DNA of 5,539 nucleotides from Candidatus Desantisbacteria bacterium CG1_02_38_46 (GCA_001871015.1 MNUO01000081.1:1-5539); one strand, 5' to 3'. Shown: positions 1 to 5,539, numbered from the stretch's first letter. The notes: a model not told the origin generated them from the sequence alone. A program made the numbers and translations.

Positions 1-1229
1 TAAAATATTGTAAACAGCATCCCGGCAGACAGAACAATCATCACCACCACTGTAGCCCAGGCAATAAAGTTAAATGCCTTTGAATTTATATAACCGCCCA
101 TCAATTCTCTTTTATTAACCAACAGGAGTATAAATATCAATAAAAATGGGAGCAGAATACCGTTAATTACCTGTGATATGTACATACCAAGTATCAATGG
201 GAACTTCGGGATTAACACAACTAAGGCGCTGACCACAATAAGACCTGTAAAAATTATGTAAAACTGCGGGGCTTCATTGAACCTCTTATTAACACCTGAT
301 TCCCATCCCATTCCTTCACATATTGAATAAGTGGTGGAAAGGGGAATTATTGAAGCAGCGGCAAGGGATGCATTTAATAGACCGAATGCAAAAAGATAAC
401 AGCAGAACTTTCCCACCAGTGGTTCCAGTGCCATAGCTGCATCTGCAGCTGTGTCAATCCTGATACCATTCTTAAATAAGGTTGATGCGCAGGCGACCAT
501 AATAAAAAGTGCGAACACTTTGGCAACTATTGTACCACTTATCACATCAAGTTTTGAATGTTTATAGTTTTCAATAGAAATTCCTTTCTCAACAATTGAT
601 GACTGAAGATAGAATTGCATCCATGGTGCTATGGTTGTACCAACCAGTCCTACCAGCATAACAGTATAAGCAGAAGACCTAAAGTTAAAAGAGGGTATGA
701 AAATTTCTTTGCTTACCTGGGCCCAATCAGGTTTAACAAGTACACCTGAAATTATATATGCAAAGTAGAGAACGCAGACTACAAGAAAAATCCTTTCAGC
801 AGATTTATATGTGCCTTTCACAACGGCAAGCCATATTATCATTGCAGCAAGTGGCACGCCCAGATACTTTTTAACACCGAAAATTTCAGAGCTTGCAGCA
901 ATACCTGCAAAATTACTAATTATATTTGCGAGATTTACAAAGAAAATGGCCAAAAGAATAAAAAAAGTAATTTTTACTCCATAATTCTCCCTTATCAAGT
1001 CAGCAAGACCTTTACCGGTTATCACTCCCATCCTTGCACACATTTCCTGAACAACTATCAGAGCAATTGTAATTGGAATAAGAGACCAAATCAAAGTATA
1101 TCCAAAATGTGCACCTGCAAGGGAATAAGTTGCGACACCGCCCGCGTCTATATCAACTATGGCTGTGATTATCCCCGGCCCCATCACTGCAAGAAAAAGC
1201 ATTATGCCTGCCCACCGCCGCTTCTTCAT
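1..1229 (-). CDS. Nramp-related (NRMT-like) divalent metal transporter, 3' end cut by window
   Basis: This is an integral membrane carrier of the Nramp/MntH (SLC11) superfamily, expected to import a divalent cation across the cytoplasmic membrane. Translation from ATG 1229 gives 409 residues without a stop. The next two bases are TA, so the gene ends at or just beyond the window; Nramp proteins are usually about 400-450 residues. The start is supported by GAGGT at 1235-1239, five bases upstream; the ATG at 1247 meets a stop after four codons. The chain is a series of hydrophobic helices. Helix 1 begins with MGPGIITAIVDIDAGG, and helix 6 carries VGTTIAPWMQFYLQS, corresponding to Nramp GATVMPH. 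The metal-site signature DPGN reads DAGG (residues 27-30), and the helix-6 Met and His are Ala201 and Trp203. Loss of the soft-metal Met ligand is a known trait of Nramp-related Mg2+ transporters, so Mg2+ (possibly Mn2+) is the inferred substrate. It lies 20 bases after the MgtE-N/CBS gene, in the same operon. Family assignment is firm; substrate is inference. Confidence 0.9.
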   Translation of the reverse strand, partial: MKKRRWAGIMLFLAVMGPGIITAIVDIDAGGVATYSLAGAHFGYTLIWSLIPITIALIVVQEMCARMGVITGKGLADLIRENYGVKITFFILLAIFFVNLANIISNFAGIAASSEIFGVKKYLGVPLAAMIIWLAVVKGTYKSAERIFLVVCVLYFAYIISGVLVKPDWAQVSKEIFIPSFNFRSSAYTVMLVGLVGTTIAPWMQFYLQSSIVEKGISIENYKHSKLDVISGTIVAKVFALFIMVACASTLFKNGIRIDTAADAAMALEPLVGKFCCYLFAFGLLNASLAAASIIPLSTTYSICEGMGWESGVNKRFNEAPQFYIIFTGLIVVSALVVLIPKFPLILGMYISQVINGILLPFLLIFILLLVNKRELMGGYINSKAFNFIAWATVVVMIVLSAGMLFTIF

Positions 1230-1249
1230 CTCTTACCTCGTAATCATTT

Positions 1250-2572
1250 TTATAGTTTTGGTTTCCTTGTTCGTTTTTTCCATGCCAACTGAATTATATG
1301 GCTTAAAATGTCATCAACAGTGATAATTCCCTGAATGACATTGTCATGAGTTACCACAGGAATTGCCAGTAAATTATACCTATCAAAAAGATAAGAAACC
1401 TTTCTCGCAGTATCGGTCAGGTGTACACTGGCTGGCCTCTTTACCATAATTTCACTGATTTGTTTTTGAGGGTCTGCTAAGAGCAGATGTCTGAAGGTTG
1501 TCATACCCAGCAAGTGGCTCTGCTCATCTATTATGTAGGCGTAGTATATTGTTTCTACCCTGCCGGTCATCTCCCTGATACGCGTAATTGCATCTGCAAC
1601 AGTAATATTCTCAGGAAGCGCAATAAATTCAGCAGCCATCAACCCTCCTGCTGAATTTACTTCATGACCCAGTAATACTGAAAGTTTCTTTGAACGTTCA
1701 CTTTCCATAAGGAAAAGAAGTTCGTCAACCTCTTTGTCAGGCAGAACACCGAGCAAGTCTACGGCCCTATCTGATGGCATATTGTTCAATATATCCACTG
1801 TGCTCTTTGTATCAAGTTCTTCCACAAGTGATTTCTGCATTTCTAAATCCAGCTCAGAAAGTACTTTCACCCTCAGAAAAGTATCCAGCGACTTAAAGAG
1901 TGCGCCACGCTCATACACATCAAGGTCCAGCATTATATCTCCGAGATCTGCGGGAGGAATCGTGCTCAATTGCTGCTGACTGACATTTAGACTTATCGTC
2001 CCCTTTACCGGATGGATGGCAAGGGGCTGGGCATACTTCCAGGAGATAAAATTGTCTTTTGTAAGATATTTTGAATTTGGGTTAAATAATTTCACAAGTG
2101 AATCCACTGCTTGCTCTGCATTAATCCGCCTGATAAGACCTCGCATTCCTGTATCCACATGTGCAATGTGCAAATTATTTTCTGCTTTGAGTAAATGAAC
2201 ATCATTAACCCGCACGACCTTGCGGTTAAAGGTATCCACAATTTGTTTATCAAGAATATCTTTTCTTAAAGCCATTTCATTTTCAGCATAATAAAAATCT
2301 TTAAAAACAAGTGCAGATGAATCAAGTAAGAAATAATATTCCTCTTGCCCGGCATCCGGGTCCTTTACAACTGTTTTTATTTCTTCCCAGGGAACAACTG
2401 CATAGGTCTTCCTGAAAATACCCCTTGAGAGCACAAGTGAAATTACGCGGGGGTAGGGTTCGGTCGGCCTAACAATTAAATCAAAAATTCTCCCGATAGG
2501 ATTCCCGGACTTATCCAGTAGATATCTGTTGGTAACTTCAGTAAAAAAAGTAAAAATTTTTTGTGCAAGCAT
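1250..2572 (-). CDS. PRC-barrel / MgtE N-domain / CBS-pair protein, likely Mg2+ sensor for the adjacent transporter
   Basis: This is a 440-residue protein with no hydrophobic segment long enough to span the membrane, so it should be cytoplasmic. Residues about 13-90 look like a PRC-barrel (LLDKSGNPIGRIFDL, then PYPRVISLVLSRG), and about 105-150 may be a second PRC-like unit. Residues about 208-307 are an MgtE intracellular N domain: helical repeats with LVEELDTKSTVDILNNMPSDRAVDLLGVLP, then the MgtE-typical SAGGLM. Residues about 315-372 and 375-432 form a CBS pair, and a basic tail ends the chain. In MgtE channels the N and CBS domains bind Mg2+ and close the pore; here the pore domain is absent. 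It sits between the truncated dehydrogenase (6-base gap) and the Nramp-type gene (20-base gap), so I infer that it gates or senses for that carrier. ATG 2572 has a GAGGA site directly before it. Domain calls are by eye; the PRC assignment is less certain than the MgtE-N and CBS calls. Confidence 0.88.
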   Translation of the reverse strand: MLAQKIFTFFTEVTNRYLLDKSGNPIGRIFDLIVRPTEPYPRVISLVLSRGIFRKTYAVVPWEEIKTVVKDPDAGQEEYYFLLDSSALVFKDFYYAENEMALRKDILDKQIVDTFNRKVVRVNDVHLLKAENNLHIAHVDTGMRGLIRRINAEQAVDSLVKLFNPNSKYLTKDNFISWKYAQPLAIHPVKGTISLNVSQQQLSTIPPADLGDIMLDLDVYERGALFKSLDTFLRVKVLSELDLEMQKSLVEELDTKSTVDILNNMPSDRAVDLLGVLPDKEVDELLFLMESERSKKLSVLLGHEVNSAGGLMAAEFIALPENITVADAITRIREMTGRVETIYYAYIIDEQSHLLGMTTFRHLLLADPQKQISEIMVKRPASVHLTDTARKVSYLFDRYNLLAIPVVTHDNVIQGIITVDDILSHIIQLAWKKRTRKPKL

Positions 2573-2575
2573 ATT

Positions 2576-2581
2576 TCCTCA
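2576..2581 (-). promoter_or_regulatory. Stop codon overlapping ribosome-binding site (translational coupling)
   Basis: On the minus strand the dehydrogenase stop TGA (2581-2579) is part of TGAGGAAAT, which supplies the GAGGA site for ATG 2572. Ribosomes finishing the upstream reading frame therefore end on the start region of the MgtE-N/CBS gene. This arrangement implies that the two genes evolved as one operon, and that damage to the upstream gene could alter expression of the downstream pair. Confidence 0.65.
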
Positions 2582-3418
2582 TTCTTTCGCAAATTCCTCA
2601 AGAACCCCGAGGTCGTCCGCCAGGTCAAGCACAGTGTATCTACCTCGTATTTCTCTTGCGTGCAGGATTGCTTTCTCTATATCTTTCTTTGAAACTCCAA
2701 ACTTAGAAAATGCTCTCGGCGCACCAGCGTCCTTCAGCGCTTTTCTTAATCTTGATTCTGGAATAAAGTTCTTCTTGATGATGTTCCTTATCTTGTTCCA
2801 GTTGCGGATAATAAATTGTATCTCTTTCTCTTTTTTCCTCCAGGGTAGATTTTTCTCCCTGAGTTGCGGATAAACCTCCACTGCCATTCCCCTCCCATAA
2901 AATCTGTAAATATTCTCTCGCATCTGTCTGCTGTTTATATAATGCTGGCGCAATTTGTCAATTTTAAACCCATTCACATCGAGTTTGAGCAATTTTTCAT
3001 AGAGACGGGCAGTTACAAGCGTGGCAATTCCAACCTGTTGTCCGTGAAGATTTACCTCTTTTCCTTTTGAATAGTTAAACATATCAAAGAAGTGTGAAAT
3101 CAGGTGCTCGCCGCCAGATGCAGGAGCAGAAGAACCGGCAATGACCATTGAAATTCCGGCGAGGTTCAATGCTTCAAAAAGTCCCTTGATTGCACCCCGG
3201 TTTTTCTTTCCAATCTTTTTAGCGTTTCGAATATAAAAATCCATTACGCCCGCCATCAATTTACCGGGCAGGTTGCAGAAATACTCTTTTTTGACTAAAC
3301 TTGAGATTCCCCAGTCAATATTGCAGACCGACTTTGAAATTCCGTCCCCAAGACCTGCCAGAATCATTTCGCGCGGTGAGTTCAGACATCTGAGCAAATA
3401 GTCAGATTTTCTTTGCAT
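2579..3418 (-). pseudogene. 5'-truncated sn-glycerol-1-phosphate dehydrogenase (EgsA/AraM family)
   Basis: Intact members reduce dihydroxyacetone phosphate to sn-glycerol-1-phosphate with NAD(P)H, in the cytoplasm. The 279 codons match the C-terminal metal-binding domain: SPREMILAGLGDGISK (14-29), GSSAPASGGEHLISH (95-109) and LHGQQVG (124-130), ending normally with AREIRGRYTVLDLADDLG. The three expected Zn ligands are present as Asp25, His105 and His125; their spacing (80 and 20) agrees with family members as I recall them. The N-terminal Rossmann domain, roughly 130-170 residues with the GGG-type NAD motif, is absent. Intact proteins are about 330-400 residues. Upstream of ATG 3418 the frame stays open only to a TGA at 3457-3455, and no ribosome-binding site precedes the ATG, so this start is merely the first Met. 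Residues 1-12 are encoded by the inverted repeat and its inner flank, and family similarity begins right after them. I infer disruption by the neighbouring element. Catalysis without the nucleotide domain is unlikely. Confidence 0.78.
3383..3405 (+). repeat. Left copy of 23-bp inverted repeat
   Basis: The outer 19 bases, CAGACATCTGAGCAAATAG, are identical to the reverse complement of 5430-5448. The inner four are TCAG here and CCAG on the other side, giving 22 of 23 matches. A chance 19-base match in 5.5 kb is very improbable. The repeat holds two overlapping small palindromes: CAGA-CA-TCTG at the outer tip, and CTGA...TCAG around an 8-base loop. A further shared ATTTCTAAAAAT lies inward at 3417-3428 and, reversed, at 5391-5402. 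Confidence 0.8.
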
Positions 3419-3780
3419 TTCTAAAAATACTTTGCAGGTACCCCCTATACCACTTCATAATGCAGAGGGAAATGAAATTTTATTAGTGGTGAATATCTTC
3501 TATTTTTACTGTCTTTACCAAATTAAACATTGGGATCCTTGGTTCAGAGTTAGTACTATCCTCGGGAAAATGGATATTTTTCACAAAACTTTGACTACAG
3601 GATGTTTAAATTAAAAATGGTTACTATAAAGTCATTCTCGCCAGTGAAAAAAACAGTTATATTTTGATATTAAAGATTTAGAGAGCAGAAAAACCTGAGG
3701 ACTATTCAGCAAAAACTTTTTTGAACCTGCAAGATAATTCGGGGCTTTGCCCCTCATAACTTTTAAGTGCGCATTGCATC
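3406..3780. other. AT-rich non-coding stretch between left inverted repeat and transposase promoter
   Basis: I see no convincing gene here on either strand. A plus-strand open frame at 3432-3614 gives a 60-residue product with no recognisable motif and no ribosome-binding site. On the minus strand a 15-codon frame (3530-3483, MFNLVKTVKIEDIHH) follows AAGGAT at a good distance but stops at once. The stretch contains the GGGGC/GCCCC hairpin at 3741-3753 and a CAAGAT/ATCTTG inverted pair (3730-3735, 3778-3783). GAAC at 3723-3726 and CAAG at 3730-3733 resemble IS91-family target tetranucleotides. It may be the terIS side of the element or remains of an older insertion. Confidence 0.5.
3741..3753. 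other. Perfect GC-rich hairpin upstream of the transposase
   Basis: GGGGC-TTT-GCCCC is a 5-bp perfect stem with a 3-base loop in otherwise AT-rich DNA, about 65 bases before the transposase start. HUH transposases commonly recognise subterminal hairpins, so it is a candidate part of the terIS-side signal. It is followed by CTCATAACTTTTAAG rather than a clean T-run, so a terminator blocking read-in transcription is possible but weaker. Confidence 0.4.
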
Positions 3781-3808
3781 TTGACTTATTTCTAAAAAAT
3801 GGTATACT
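3781..3808 (+). promoter_or_regulatory. Sigma70-type promoter of the transposase, near-leaderless
   Basis: TTGACT (3781-3786) and TATACT (3803-3808) are separated by 16 bases, each close to consensus. Transcription would start near 3814-3816, only 2-4 bases before ATG 3818. The message would then be nearly leaderless, and no Shine-Dalgarno sequence lies before either ATG 3818 or the next in-frame ATG at 3830. Confidence 0.6.
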
Positions 3809-3817
3809 TATTGTACT

Positions 3818-5107
3818 ATGGCTGTGCAGATGAGATTATTCCCCAATTCTGATCCCCGAGATATCACATTTGAGTATATTCTGAGAGTCGATAATAATTG
3901 GGAACAATTCAAATCTCTATACGGCAACCAATTAAGACCAGTAATTATCGATGAAGTAGAGAAAATGCTCAAATGTTGTAATCCCGAAAATGGATTTGCT
4001 ACCTTCATCTGCCTTTCCTGTGGTGAAACTAAAATCATCCCTTTCAGCTGTAAGAGTAGAATCTGCACTCGCTGTGGCAAAAAGCACACTGATATCTGGT
4101 CTCAAGAGCTTAACGATATTTTACTCAATGTTCCCCACAGACATATAGTATTTACAGTCTCGGACAGACTTTGGCCATATTTCCAGGACGATTCTAAATT
4201 ACAGGGGCTTCTCCTTGATACAGCTGCCAATGTCCTGCAGGAGATCTTTTCCCAGCATAACCGTAAAAAGGTAAGGATAACTCCGGGACTGATTCTGGTC
4301 TTACATCCTTTCGGCGATGACCTCAAACCCAACTTCCATGTACACATCCTCATTACCATTGGTGGTTTATCAAAGAAAGGTGAATGGGTCTACATAAACG
4401 ACTTCATTGACTACAGCATATATAGAAAAATGTGGCAATATGAAATCCTCACCAACCTCAGAAAAAATCTACCGAATAATCCAAACCTGAACAGAATAAT
4501 CGATTGGTGTTTCGATAACAGGAAAAACGGTTTTGTTATCTTTGCCAAACCAACAATCAAGGGTGGCAAACGACATTCTACCCTAAAATATATCGCTCGC
4601 TATGTTCGACATCCTGCTATTTCTAACAGACGCATTATTGGCTATGATGGTCAATCAGTTACTTTTATCTATGAGGAGAATAATAAAAAGTACACCAAGA
4701 CACTACCTAAACTTGAATTTATCAAGGCTGTTGTTCAGCATATTCCAGATAAACAGTTCAAGATGATTCGTCGTGTTGGACTATATGCCAGAAGATCAAA
4801 CCTCAAATATGAGATTGCCAAACAGATACTCGATCCTGCACCTAAAAATGAAGTTGGCAAATTCAACTGGAGAAAAAACATAACCAATTATACACAGAAA
4901 GATCCTCTTAGCTGTGATAAATGTGGAGAAGAGATGCACCTTTACAAAATTACATACTTTGACGGAAGCCAATATAAAACAGTTGGCGGATTTGATTGGT
5001 TAATCAAAAGAGGAGTCATTAGTTATGTGGAAGGTCTTCCAAATTTTCCAACGAAAGTCAAAGAACAAGCACCCCAAAACCAGTGGTGTCAATTATGTTT
5101 GTGGTAA
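3818..5107 (+). CDS. tnpA: IS91-family Y2 HUH transposase
   Basis: This is a rolling-circle transposase of 429 residues that would nick and rejoin single strands through phosphotyrosine intermediates. Residues about 65-90 form the IS91-type N-terminal zinc finger (CLSC, then C-x4-C-x2-C with His90). The HUH motif is HVH at 174-176 within KPNFHVHIL, preceded by TPGLILVLHPFGDDL. The paired tyrosines are Tyr258 and Tyr262 in KYIARYVRHPAISNRRI, the double-Tyr spacing of IS91. The C-terminal segment FIKAVVQHIPDKQFKMIRRVGLYA (301-324) is also typical of the family, and CDKC (366-369) starts another possible zinc knuckle. All catalytic residues are present, so the enzyme could be active. Length fits the family. 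The last 28 codons overlap the zinc-ribbon gene in another frame; the final residues, WCQLCLW, may be native or the result of a one-base slip near CCCCAAAA (5072-5079). It is transcribed against the operon to its left. Confidence 0.92.
   Translation: MAVQMRLFPNSDPRDITFEYILRVDNNWEQFKSLYGNQLRPVIIDEVEKMLKCCNPENGFATFICLSCGETKIIPFSCKSRICTRCGKKHTDIWSQELNDILLNVPHRHIVFTVSDRLWPYFQDDSKLQGLLLDTAANVLQEIFSQHNRKKVRITPGLILVLHPFGDDLKPNFHVHILITIGGLSKKGEWVYINDFIDYSIYRKMWQYEILTNLRKNLPNNPNLNRIIDWCFDNRKNGFVIFAKPTIKGGKRHSTLKYIARYVRHPAISNRRIIGYDGQSVTFIYEENNKKYTKTLPKLEFIKAVVQHIPDKQFKMIRRVGLYARRSNLKYEIAKQILDPAPKNEVGKFNWRKNITNYTQKDPLSCDKCGEEMHLYKITYFDGSQYKTVGGFDWLIKRGVISYVEGLPNFPTKVKEQAPQNQWCQLCLW
5009..5015 (+). promoter_or_regulatory. 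Ribosome-binding site inside the transposase gene
   Basis: AGAGGAG lies nine bases before ATG 5025, inside the transposase coding sequence. It is the main argument that the small downstream frame is a separate, independently started gene and not the tail of a broken transposase. Confidence 0.55.
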
Positions 5108-5321
5108 ATGTGGGGCCCAGGAAATCATCCCTTATGAAGTGCTGGAGGACTTTGACTTGATGTTCCCAGAAGAGCTCATCCACGGGCCACATATGCTCAG
5201 ATGTGAGAAATGTGGCAGCGGAATCATGCAACCAGAACACTATGAGGCTAAAATCATGGGCTATGGCCTCTATGAAGGACTGGACTACACCATAAAGATA
5301 GACAAACAGAAGAAAAAATGA
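5025..5321 (+). CDS. Small zinc-ribbon protein overlapping the transposase 3' end
   Basis: This is a 98-residue protein of unknown role. Two CxxC knuckles, CGKC at 26-29 and CEKC at 60-63, are spaced as in a zinc ribbon, with an acidic stretch between them (EVLEDFDLMFPEE) and a lysine-rich C-terminus. The first 20 residues are basic and show no domain. The frame is +1 to the transposase and overlaps it by 83 bases; AGAGGAG at 5009-5015 supports ATG 5025. It may be an accessory DNA-binding factor of the element. Alternatively, the Cys-rich part was once the transposase C-terminus: a +1 slip, or loss of one base, at CCCC (5072-5075) would fuse the frames into about 500 residues. I cannot decide between these from one copy; the domain itself looks genuine. 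Confidence 0.62.
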   Translation: MWKVFQIFQRKSKNKHPKTSGVNYVCGKCGAQEIIPYEVLEDFDLMFPEELIHGPHMLRCEKCGSGIMQPEHYEAKIMGYGLYEGLDYTIKIDKQKKK

Positions 5322-5351
5322 TTTATCCACAACTAAAACCATTATTTTTTT
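5317..5351 (+). terminator. Weak intrinsic terminator after the zinc-ribbon gene
   Basis: AATGATTT (5317-5324) can pair with AAACCATT (5336-5343) with one mismatch around an 11-base loop, followed by seven T residues at 5345-5351. The stem is AT-rich and overlaps the stop codon, so it is a weak candidate, though its position after the last gene of the element is right. Confidence 0.35.
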
Positions 5352-5398
5352 GTCCGTACCATGCGATATACTTTCCTATGTAATCAAGAAATTTTTAG

Positions 5399-5422
5399 AA
5401 ATTTTCTCCTCGAGAAAAATTT
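5399..5422. other. Long AT-rich hairpin just inside the right inverted repeat
   Basis: AAATTTTCTC (5399-5408) pairs with GAGAAAA plus TTT (5412-5422, one bulged A at 5419) around the loop CTC. It lies four bases inside the right inverted repeat. In IS91-like elements the end downstream of the transposase is oriIS, where hairpins guide nicking, so this may be part of that signal. GAAATTTT also occurs twice in tandem just here (5388-5405). Confidence 0.45.
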
Positions 5423-5425
5423 TGG

Positions 5426-5448
5426 CTGGCTATTTGCTCAGATGTCTG
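5426..5448 (-). repeat. Right copy of 23-bp inverted repeat
   Basis: CTATTTGCTCAGATGTCTG at 5430-5448 is the exact reverse complement of 3383-3401. The four inner bases CTGG (5426-5429) differ from the left copy at one position. It lies 105 bases past the zinc-ribbon stop and 49 bases before the next gene start. The outermost ten bases, CAGATGTCTG, can fold into a 4-bp stem. Confidence 0.8.
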
Positions 5449-5497
5449 TCATTTGTATTTTTTATTAAGTAATCCTTTCTTTAGGAACGAGGAATAT

Positions 5498-5539
5498 ATG
5501 TGGCCTGAAAGAAACCGGGTTCTGCCTTACCACTACGGT
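5498..5539 (+). CDS. Start of an unidentified gene, cut by window end
   Basis: ATG 5498 follows GAGGAA (5489-5494) at three bases, and the frame (MWPERNRVLPYHYG) is open through the last base of the window. Fourteen codons are too few to name a family. The strong ribosome-binding site makes a genuine start likely. It lies just outside the right inverted repeat and points away from the element, so an outward promoter in the element end could influence it; I see no clear promoter of its own in 5449-5488. Confidence 0.5.
   Translation, partial: MWPERNRVLPYHYG

Follow-up and report, generated by a model that had tools for sequence, protein, structure and literature searches.

An Nramp-related Mg2+ carrier and its candidate MgtE-type soluble sensor: a further example of a known, widely co-inherited gene pair

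Nramp-related Mg2+ transporters (NRMTs) are recognized by the combination of a DxxG motif in TM1 and a TxxA/T motif in TM6 (Ramanadane et al. 2022, PMC8806188). EleNRMT transports Mg2+ without proton coupling, and NRMT also moves Mn2+ (PMC8806188). The main text of Shin et al. 2014 (PLoS Genet, PMC4072509) describes an 'MgtE-like fragment' encoded beside most nrmT genes, and proposes, as speculation, that the fragment serves in feedback regulation or as a chaperone. According to the same text, the C. acetobutylicum NrmT proteins Ca_c0685 and Ca_c3329 need no fragment to transport Mg2+, and in B. subtilis NrmT works in its absence. The A. capsulatum pair Acp2976/Acp2977 behaves there as a Mn2+ transporter, with Mn2+ rescue by Acp2977, and Mg2+ rescue is no better when Acp2976 is co-expressed with Acp2977. 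In the passages of later literature that were searched, the MgtE-like partner is not taken up, and no mention of a PRC barrel together with MgtE was found in the literature searched. For the role of the fragment, the genomic data described below favour regulation.

The locus analysed here lies in a stretch of 5,539 nucleotides from Candidatus Desantisbacteria bacterium CG1_02_38_46 (MNUO01000081.1:1-5539), hereafter the window. An initial annotation knew of no characterised precedent for gating of an Nramp-fold carrier by a soluble sensor, and allowed that homologous gene pairs might already be annotated without comment. This novelty does not stand: both the pairing and the sensor idea were published in 2014, together with the feedback suggestion, in the main text of Shin et al. 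(PMC4072509), and the window is a further example of that known pair. Transcription on the minus strand runs from a dehydrogenase-like gene fragment through the sensor to the carrier, and the features are as follows.

3-1229, minus strand: NRMT carrier, 409 amino acids, full length (Pfam Nramp, 7.5e-98; phmmer match to EleNRMT; orthologue)
1137-1148, minus strand: TM1 metal-site motif D28-A29-G30-G31, corresponding to D55/G58 of EleNRMT (alignment, conservation, DxxG signature)
627-638, minus strand: TM6 metal-site motif T198-T199-I200-A201, corresponding to T224/A227 of EleNRMT (conservation, TxxA/T signature)
1230-1249, minus strand: spacer of 20 bases from sensor to carrier (relatives often overlap by 4 bases)
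1250-2572, minus strand: stand-alone sensor PRC-PRC-MgtE_N-CBS-CBS, 440 amino acids, no pore (Pfam, AlphaFold model, 87 full-length homologues)
2282-2572, minus strand: PRC barrel 1, residues 1-97 (Pfam PRC matches in the family; PRC structures aligned over residues 4-99)
2003-2281, minus strand: PRC barrel 2, residues 98-190 (alignment to CdpB1, 8qzo; Pfam PRC at residues 97-182 in the homologue at L080; conservation)
1658-1978, minus strand: MgtE N domain, residues 199-305, with D268 and D272 (Pfam MgtE_N, structural match, site residues)
1271-1657, minus strand: CBS pair, residues 306-434, with D421 (Pfam, site residues, structural match)
2579-3418, minus strand: glycerol-1-phosphate-dehydrogenase-like gene, 5'-truncated, directly upstream of the sensor (NF002022, 1.1e-32)

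The carrier is complete, with its stop codon at the very start of the contig, and an orthologue 70% identical to it occurs in the phylum's only other genome. Among solved proteins, EleNRMT (7qia) is closest to it (phmmer 1.2e-106), and MntH chains score 8e-34 or weaker. The two metal-site motifs are strongly conserved among the 105 NRMT-like carriers collected: D28 is present in 104 and G31 in 99 of these, T198 in 102 and A201 in 89. Q353 aligns with Q379 of EleNRMT, and in the same alignment the protonatable histidines of TM6b are replaced by W203 and L208. With the signature D28xxG31 and T198xxA201, and with EleNRMT as nearest relative, the initial claim of an Nramp-related carrier whose metal site is altered towards Mg2+ is borne out; the window carrier is an NRMT with a Mg2+-type site, and Mg2+ transport is predicted from its sequence. 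Two positions are unusual. I27 (codon 1149-1151), beside the metal-site aspartate, is asparagine in 99 of the 105 carriers and isoleucine in no other. N106 (codon 912-914) is shared with 12 others, and 91 of the 105 have the glutamate that EleNRMT keeps (Glu133).

The dehydrogenase-like gene upstream of the sensor has a full-length, 446-residue homologue in the same position at another locus (L091), and the neighbour is kept in the sister genome; its role in a Mg2+ unit is doubtful. An IS91-family (Y2) element of about 2.0 kb (3420-5448; transposase 3818-5107, plus strand) lies at the 5' side of this truncated gene, and further copies or ends, 84-91% identical, occur on contigs C16, C65, C66 and C133. 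Residues of about 177-444 of the dehydrogenase-like protein are encoded in the window and residues 4-180 on contig C66 (G000 C66:214-750), where the coding part adjoins another end of the IS91-type element. The right flank of the window (5449-5539) overlaps contig C52 at 100%. The split gene suggests a rearrangement between copies of the element, or an assembly effect. Because the element cuts the dehydrogenase-like gene, the operon may no longer have its native promoter in place. The window contains no Rfam match at gathering score, M-box included, and no PADLOC match.

The sensor gene had been described as encoding MgtE-type N and CBS domains without the pore, joined to a PRC-barrel-like module. 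Pfam detects MgtE_N (1.7e-20) and CBS (3.1e-15) in its product, and the MgtE pore (PF01769) is found neither in this protein nor in the rest of the genome, in agreement with the first part of the description. The PRC assignment is also confirmed, except that there are two barrels instead of one. In the window protein itself the Pfam PRC match is weak and slightly below the cut-off, and 56 of 59 homologous sensor N-termini are matched by Pfam PRC. Residues 1-192 folded alone give a confident model (pLDDT 90.7, pTM 0.85), whose best fold match, with 134 residues aligned between positions 6 and 186, is the tandem-PRC protein CdpB1 (8qzo; Z 11.0, rmsd 4.1 A). Barrel 2 is supported by CdpB1, by the Pfam match in L080 and by the model, the other PRC structure matches mainly covering barrel 1. 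On these family and model data, the N-terminus of the window sensor is best described as two PRC barrels and not a single module, an assignment that is firm for the family. The AlphaFold model of the whole sensor has a pLDDT of 89.9 and a pTM of 0.61, which leaves the orientation of its domains unsure. Over residues 192-434, the model superimposes closely on the cytosolic part of MgtE, at Z 27-29 and an rmsd of 1.7-2.8 A.

The Mg2+ ligands of T. thermophilus MgtE (PMC5882242; numbering verified on the chain sequence) can be located in the sensor. The Mg4 ligands are kept as D268 (D91 in MgtE) and D421 (D247), and the Mg6 ligand as D272 (D95). The Mg5 ligands D226 and D250 are replaced by N400 and S424, and the C-terminus is a short basic tail where MgtE has its plug helix. 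Since the Mg4 and Mg6 ligands remain and the plug helix has given way to a basic tail, the residues indicate that the hinge sites between N and CBS are retained and that the elements by which MgtE holds its pore are lost. The same pattern is seen across the 87 full-length sensors, where the D95 equivalent is invariant (87/87) and the D91 and D247 equivalents occur in 68 and 69, respectively. The D226 equivalent is present in 15 of 87 sensors compared with 15 of 21 MgtE proteins, and the E216 equivalent in 18 of 87 compared with 20 of 21.

About a fifth of the sensors lack one or both Mg4 ligands. The two residues tend to go together: 66 sensors keep both, 16 have lost both and 5 have a single one (Fisher 1e-12). 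When the losses are placed on the tree, they come down to 4-5 changes and some 2-3 independent events (sign test p 0.5), so that joint loss of the D91 and D247 equivalents is only suggestive. An association of Mg4 loss with a Mn2+-type clade was considered and failed: 14 of 15 Acidobacteria sensors without an M-box keep the ligands, one Acidobacterium being the exception.

Binding of adenosine ligands is common among CBS pairs. MgtE itself binds ATP (PMC5529423). The CBS part of the sensor might, then, respond to a nucleotide (ATP or c-di-AMP) and couple the carrier to the energy state of the cell instead of to Mg2+. R361 and Y344 of the window protein match R187 and Y170 of the MgtE ATP site, as such a sensor would have it, whereas F227, D188 and N203 have become L401, H362 and V377. 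These replacements weigh little either way, F227 being leucine in most MgtE proteins too, and nucleotide sensing is in our judgement very unlikely.

The neighbourhood survey called for by the initial annotation could have undone the pairing, and it found the pairing conserved. A scan of 84,980 species genomes yielded NRMT loci of which the best 80, those nearest to the window, were kept; 60 of these have at least 2 kb of sequence upstream and at least 1.5 kb downstream. A sensor lies within 5 kb at 53 of these 60 loci: 49 have it upstream in the same orientation as the carrier, 3 have it downstream, and in 1 the two genes converge. Gaps between sensor and NRMT are mostly -4 to 41 bases, and the commonest arrangement is a 4-base overlap. 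The spacing in the window, claimed as 20 bases, is exactly that (1230-1249). In an unbiased sample of 145 genomes from different families, scored for a full-length sensor and for an NRMT of at least 300 bits, 16 genomes have the sensor, 16 have NRMT, 14 have both and 12 have them adjacent (Fisher p 1.3e-15). Together, the linkage counts and the 145-genome co-occurrence rule out a chance or merely local pairing.

Both gene orders are found for the two genes, and natural sensor-NRMT fusions are absent from the loci collected. All 11 plasmid-borne sensors examined lie beside NRMT. Three plasmid loci, from Citrobacter, Cellulomonas and Serratia (L007, L008 and L161), carry the pair next to genes for a heavy-metal P-type ATPase and a regulator of the ArsR/SmtB type and look like metal-resistance islands; on two actinobacterial plasmids (L006 and L010), an MgtC/SapB-family gene lies downstream of the pair. 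Two genomes (G032 and G128) have between them three NRMT-like carriers but no sensor, and in two of the three the DxxG signature is not kept (DAGS). A stand-alone sensor is present in all 20 NRMT genomes searched, a set picked so as to cover the genomes with no sensor next to NRMT; the copy at L090 is split over two reading frames. Distances in the sensor and NRMT trees correlate at 0.69, compared with at most 0.19 in 1000 shuffles, which shows co-inheritance, with species phylogeny not controlled for. By these genomic measures, sensor and carrier are co-inherited in a very large number of lineages of bacteria and archaea.

Riboswitches provide a further line of evidence. Two genomes in which sensor and nrmT are unlinked, those of Acididesulfobacillus and Peptococcaceae CEB3, have a separate M-box Mg2+ riboswitch at each gene (137-147 bits). 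An M-box also precedes the first gene of nine adjacent pairs (L022, L045, L026, L031, L032, L036, L039, L060 and L084; that of L031 is cut by the contig end), and it is missing at most of the loci collected. The D91, D95 and D247 equivalents are all three kept in every one of the 11 M-box-linked sensors. At four loci of Smithella/Syntrophaceae type (L018, L024, L050 and L061), a PyrR binding-site motif with a score slightly over the threshold lies shortly before the sensor gene, on the opposite strand. Because unlinked sensors persist in NRMT genomes and carry M-boxes of their own, the association of sensor and carrier is more than operon drift. The near-obligate co-occurrence, the separate riboswitches on unlinked copies and the kept Mg2+ ligands make a regulatory sensor role appear much more likely than hitch-hiking.

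The distribution of other Mg2+ importers fits the same picture. The genome of the window, 88% complete, has no CorA, MgtE pore or MgtA above cut-off; at that completeness the absence of other recognised Mg2+ importer families is suggestive. CorA is also absent from four genomes with the pair that are 99-100% complete. An MgtE pore scores above cut-off in 1 of 22 NRMT genomes, and MgtE-like genes occur in 1 of 14 genomes with the pair compared with 93 of 131 others in the 145-genome sample (p 4e-6). Because genomes with the pair rarely have MgtE-like genes, NRMT and its sensor seem to take the place of MgtE.

These observations also bear on which ion is handled. The unit might serve Mn2+ (or Fe2+), with a sensor tuned to that ion, as has been suggested for Acp2976/Acp2977 of A. 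capsulatum. The published Mn2+ rescue with Acp2977 (main text of PMC4072509), the movement of Mn2+ by NRMT (PMC8806188) and the departure of the window carrier from EleNRMT at N106 and I27 would all fit. However, the site signature is of the Mg2+ type, relatives are found under Mg2+ riboswitches, and every other recognised Mg2+ importer family is missing from the window's genome as far as its 88% completeness reaches. A Mn2+ or Fe2+ unit is on balance distinctly unlikely.

Near-invariant columns of the sensor family are densest not in the N or CBS parts but in PRC barrel 2 (D108, Q110, D113, R121, D124, R148, R149 and W178). Since this is the densest block of invariant residues, barrel 2 would be the best candidate for a docking face. 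PRC barrels are known mostly as docking modules, as in the reaction-centre H subunit and CdpB1. The sensor could then be an assembly or stability partner: its barrels would dock on NRMT and help the carrier to fold or to reach the membrane, and the part derived from MgtE would have given up Mg2+ sensing. The greater conservation of barrel 2, the loss of the Mg5 ligands and plug helix, and the loss of Mg4 ligands in about a fifth of sensors are consistent with this role. Against it stand the invariant D95 equivalent, the joint retention or loss of the Mg4 pair (limited to about 2-3 independent events) and the M-boxes on unlinked sensors, which point to Mg2+ homeostasis. NrmT also functions without the fragment in B. 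subtilis (main text of PMC4072509). We regard a purely assembly-related role as unlikely.

Mg2+-dependent feedback control of NRMT in trans by the soluble sensor is instead the reading we hold to be probable, if by a modest measure. MgtE and CorA meet the same problem of Mg2+ overload with cytosolic sensors. Having no proton coupling, an NRMT carrier without a brake would let the membrane potential go on driving Mg2+ into the cell. By analogy, an MgtE-like feedback brake is plausible, since NRMTs lack this coupling (PMC8806188). In such a scheme, the carrier would import hydrated Mg2+, and the sensor, an MgtE cytosolic sensor detached from its pore, would use its two PRC barrels and its basic C-terminal tail to attach to NRMT on the cytosolic side. 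At high cytosolic Mg2+, the ion would be bound between the N and CBS domains and close the hinge, and the compact, Mg2+-bound sensor would slow or close the carrier. We infer the protein contact, Mg2+ as the signal, the inhibitory sense of the feedback and the docking part. MgtE cannot close without its Mg5 ligands and its plug helix, and the sensor has neither, so any gating here must work by another mechanism.

Some observations run against feedback control. About a fifth of the sensors are without one or both Mg4 ligands, the window has no M-box, and I27 and N106 are unusual. In the main text of Shin et al. (PMC4072509), NrmT moves Mg2+ without the fragment and the A. capsulatum partner is of the Mn2+ type. 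A brake remains compatible with the co-expression result given there, since it should not make rescue any better when Mg2+ is low.

The logic of the module itself speaks for feedback. There is one genome without NRMT (G139) where a homologous PRC-PRC-MgtE_N-CBS-CBS unit is fused to an MgtE pore in a protein of 618 amino acids (L115:4318-6174). In another genome without NRMT, whose gene order resembles that of an actinobacterium (G129, L116:4087-6073), a stand-alone PRC/MgtE_N/CBS gene is followed by genes for a DUF1003 membrane protein and an Mrp-like ATPase; the DUF1003 protein is a possible second partner for the sensor. The arginine pair R148/R149 is present in the MgtE-fused form and absent from the DUF1003-linked form. 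A broader reading, which we put forward tentatively as a little less than an even bet, is that a soluble MgtE-derived sensor gates a LeuT-fold carrier in trans via tandem PRC barrels; NRMT and sensor would together form a widespread two-component feedback system in place of MgtE. As part of that same tentative reading, the sensor would be a portable module, found also as a fusion with an MgtE pore and, in a different form, beside a DUF1003 membrane protein. If this is true, one sensor module controls two unrelated transport folds, which would explain how the cell escapes Mg2+ overload through a carrier uncoupled from protons.

Comparison with known systems places each part of the locus. The tandem PRC fold over sensor residues 6-186 is that of CdpB1 (PDB 8qzo), which differs in being an archaeal cell-division protein with 14% identity and with no MgtE or CBS domains in the 8qzo structure. 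Residues 192-434 share the fold of the MgtE channel's cytosolic part (PDB 2yvy and 2zy9) and keep its Mg4 and Mg6 ligands; compared with MgtE, the sensor lacks the pore, the plug helix and the Mg5 ligands and has two PRC barrels added in front. The carrier belongs to the family of EleNRMT from Eggerthella lenta (PMC8806188; 7qia), with the same DxxG-TxxA site and the same loss of the TM6b histidines, and differs from it in having I27 instead of asparagine and N106 instead of Glu133. The main text of the EleNRMT paper mentions no operon or CBS partner (PMC8806188). Unlike nrmT pairs under M-box control, the window has no M-box, an element that is common in such pairs and neither universal nor defining. 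The closest system is the NrmT and MgtE-like fragment pair of Shin et al. 2014, whose main text has the same adjacent genes, the homologue of the MgtE cytosolic part, the M-box in relatives and the feedback proposal. New here, relative to that main text, are the PRC barrels, the genome-wide co-occurrence, the M-boxes on unlinked sensors, the retention of ligand residues at the Mg2+ sites and the form fused to MgtE.
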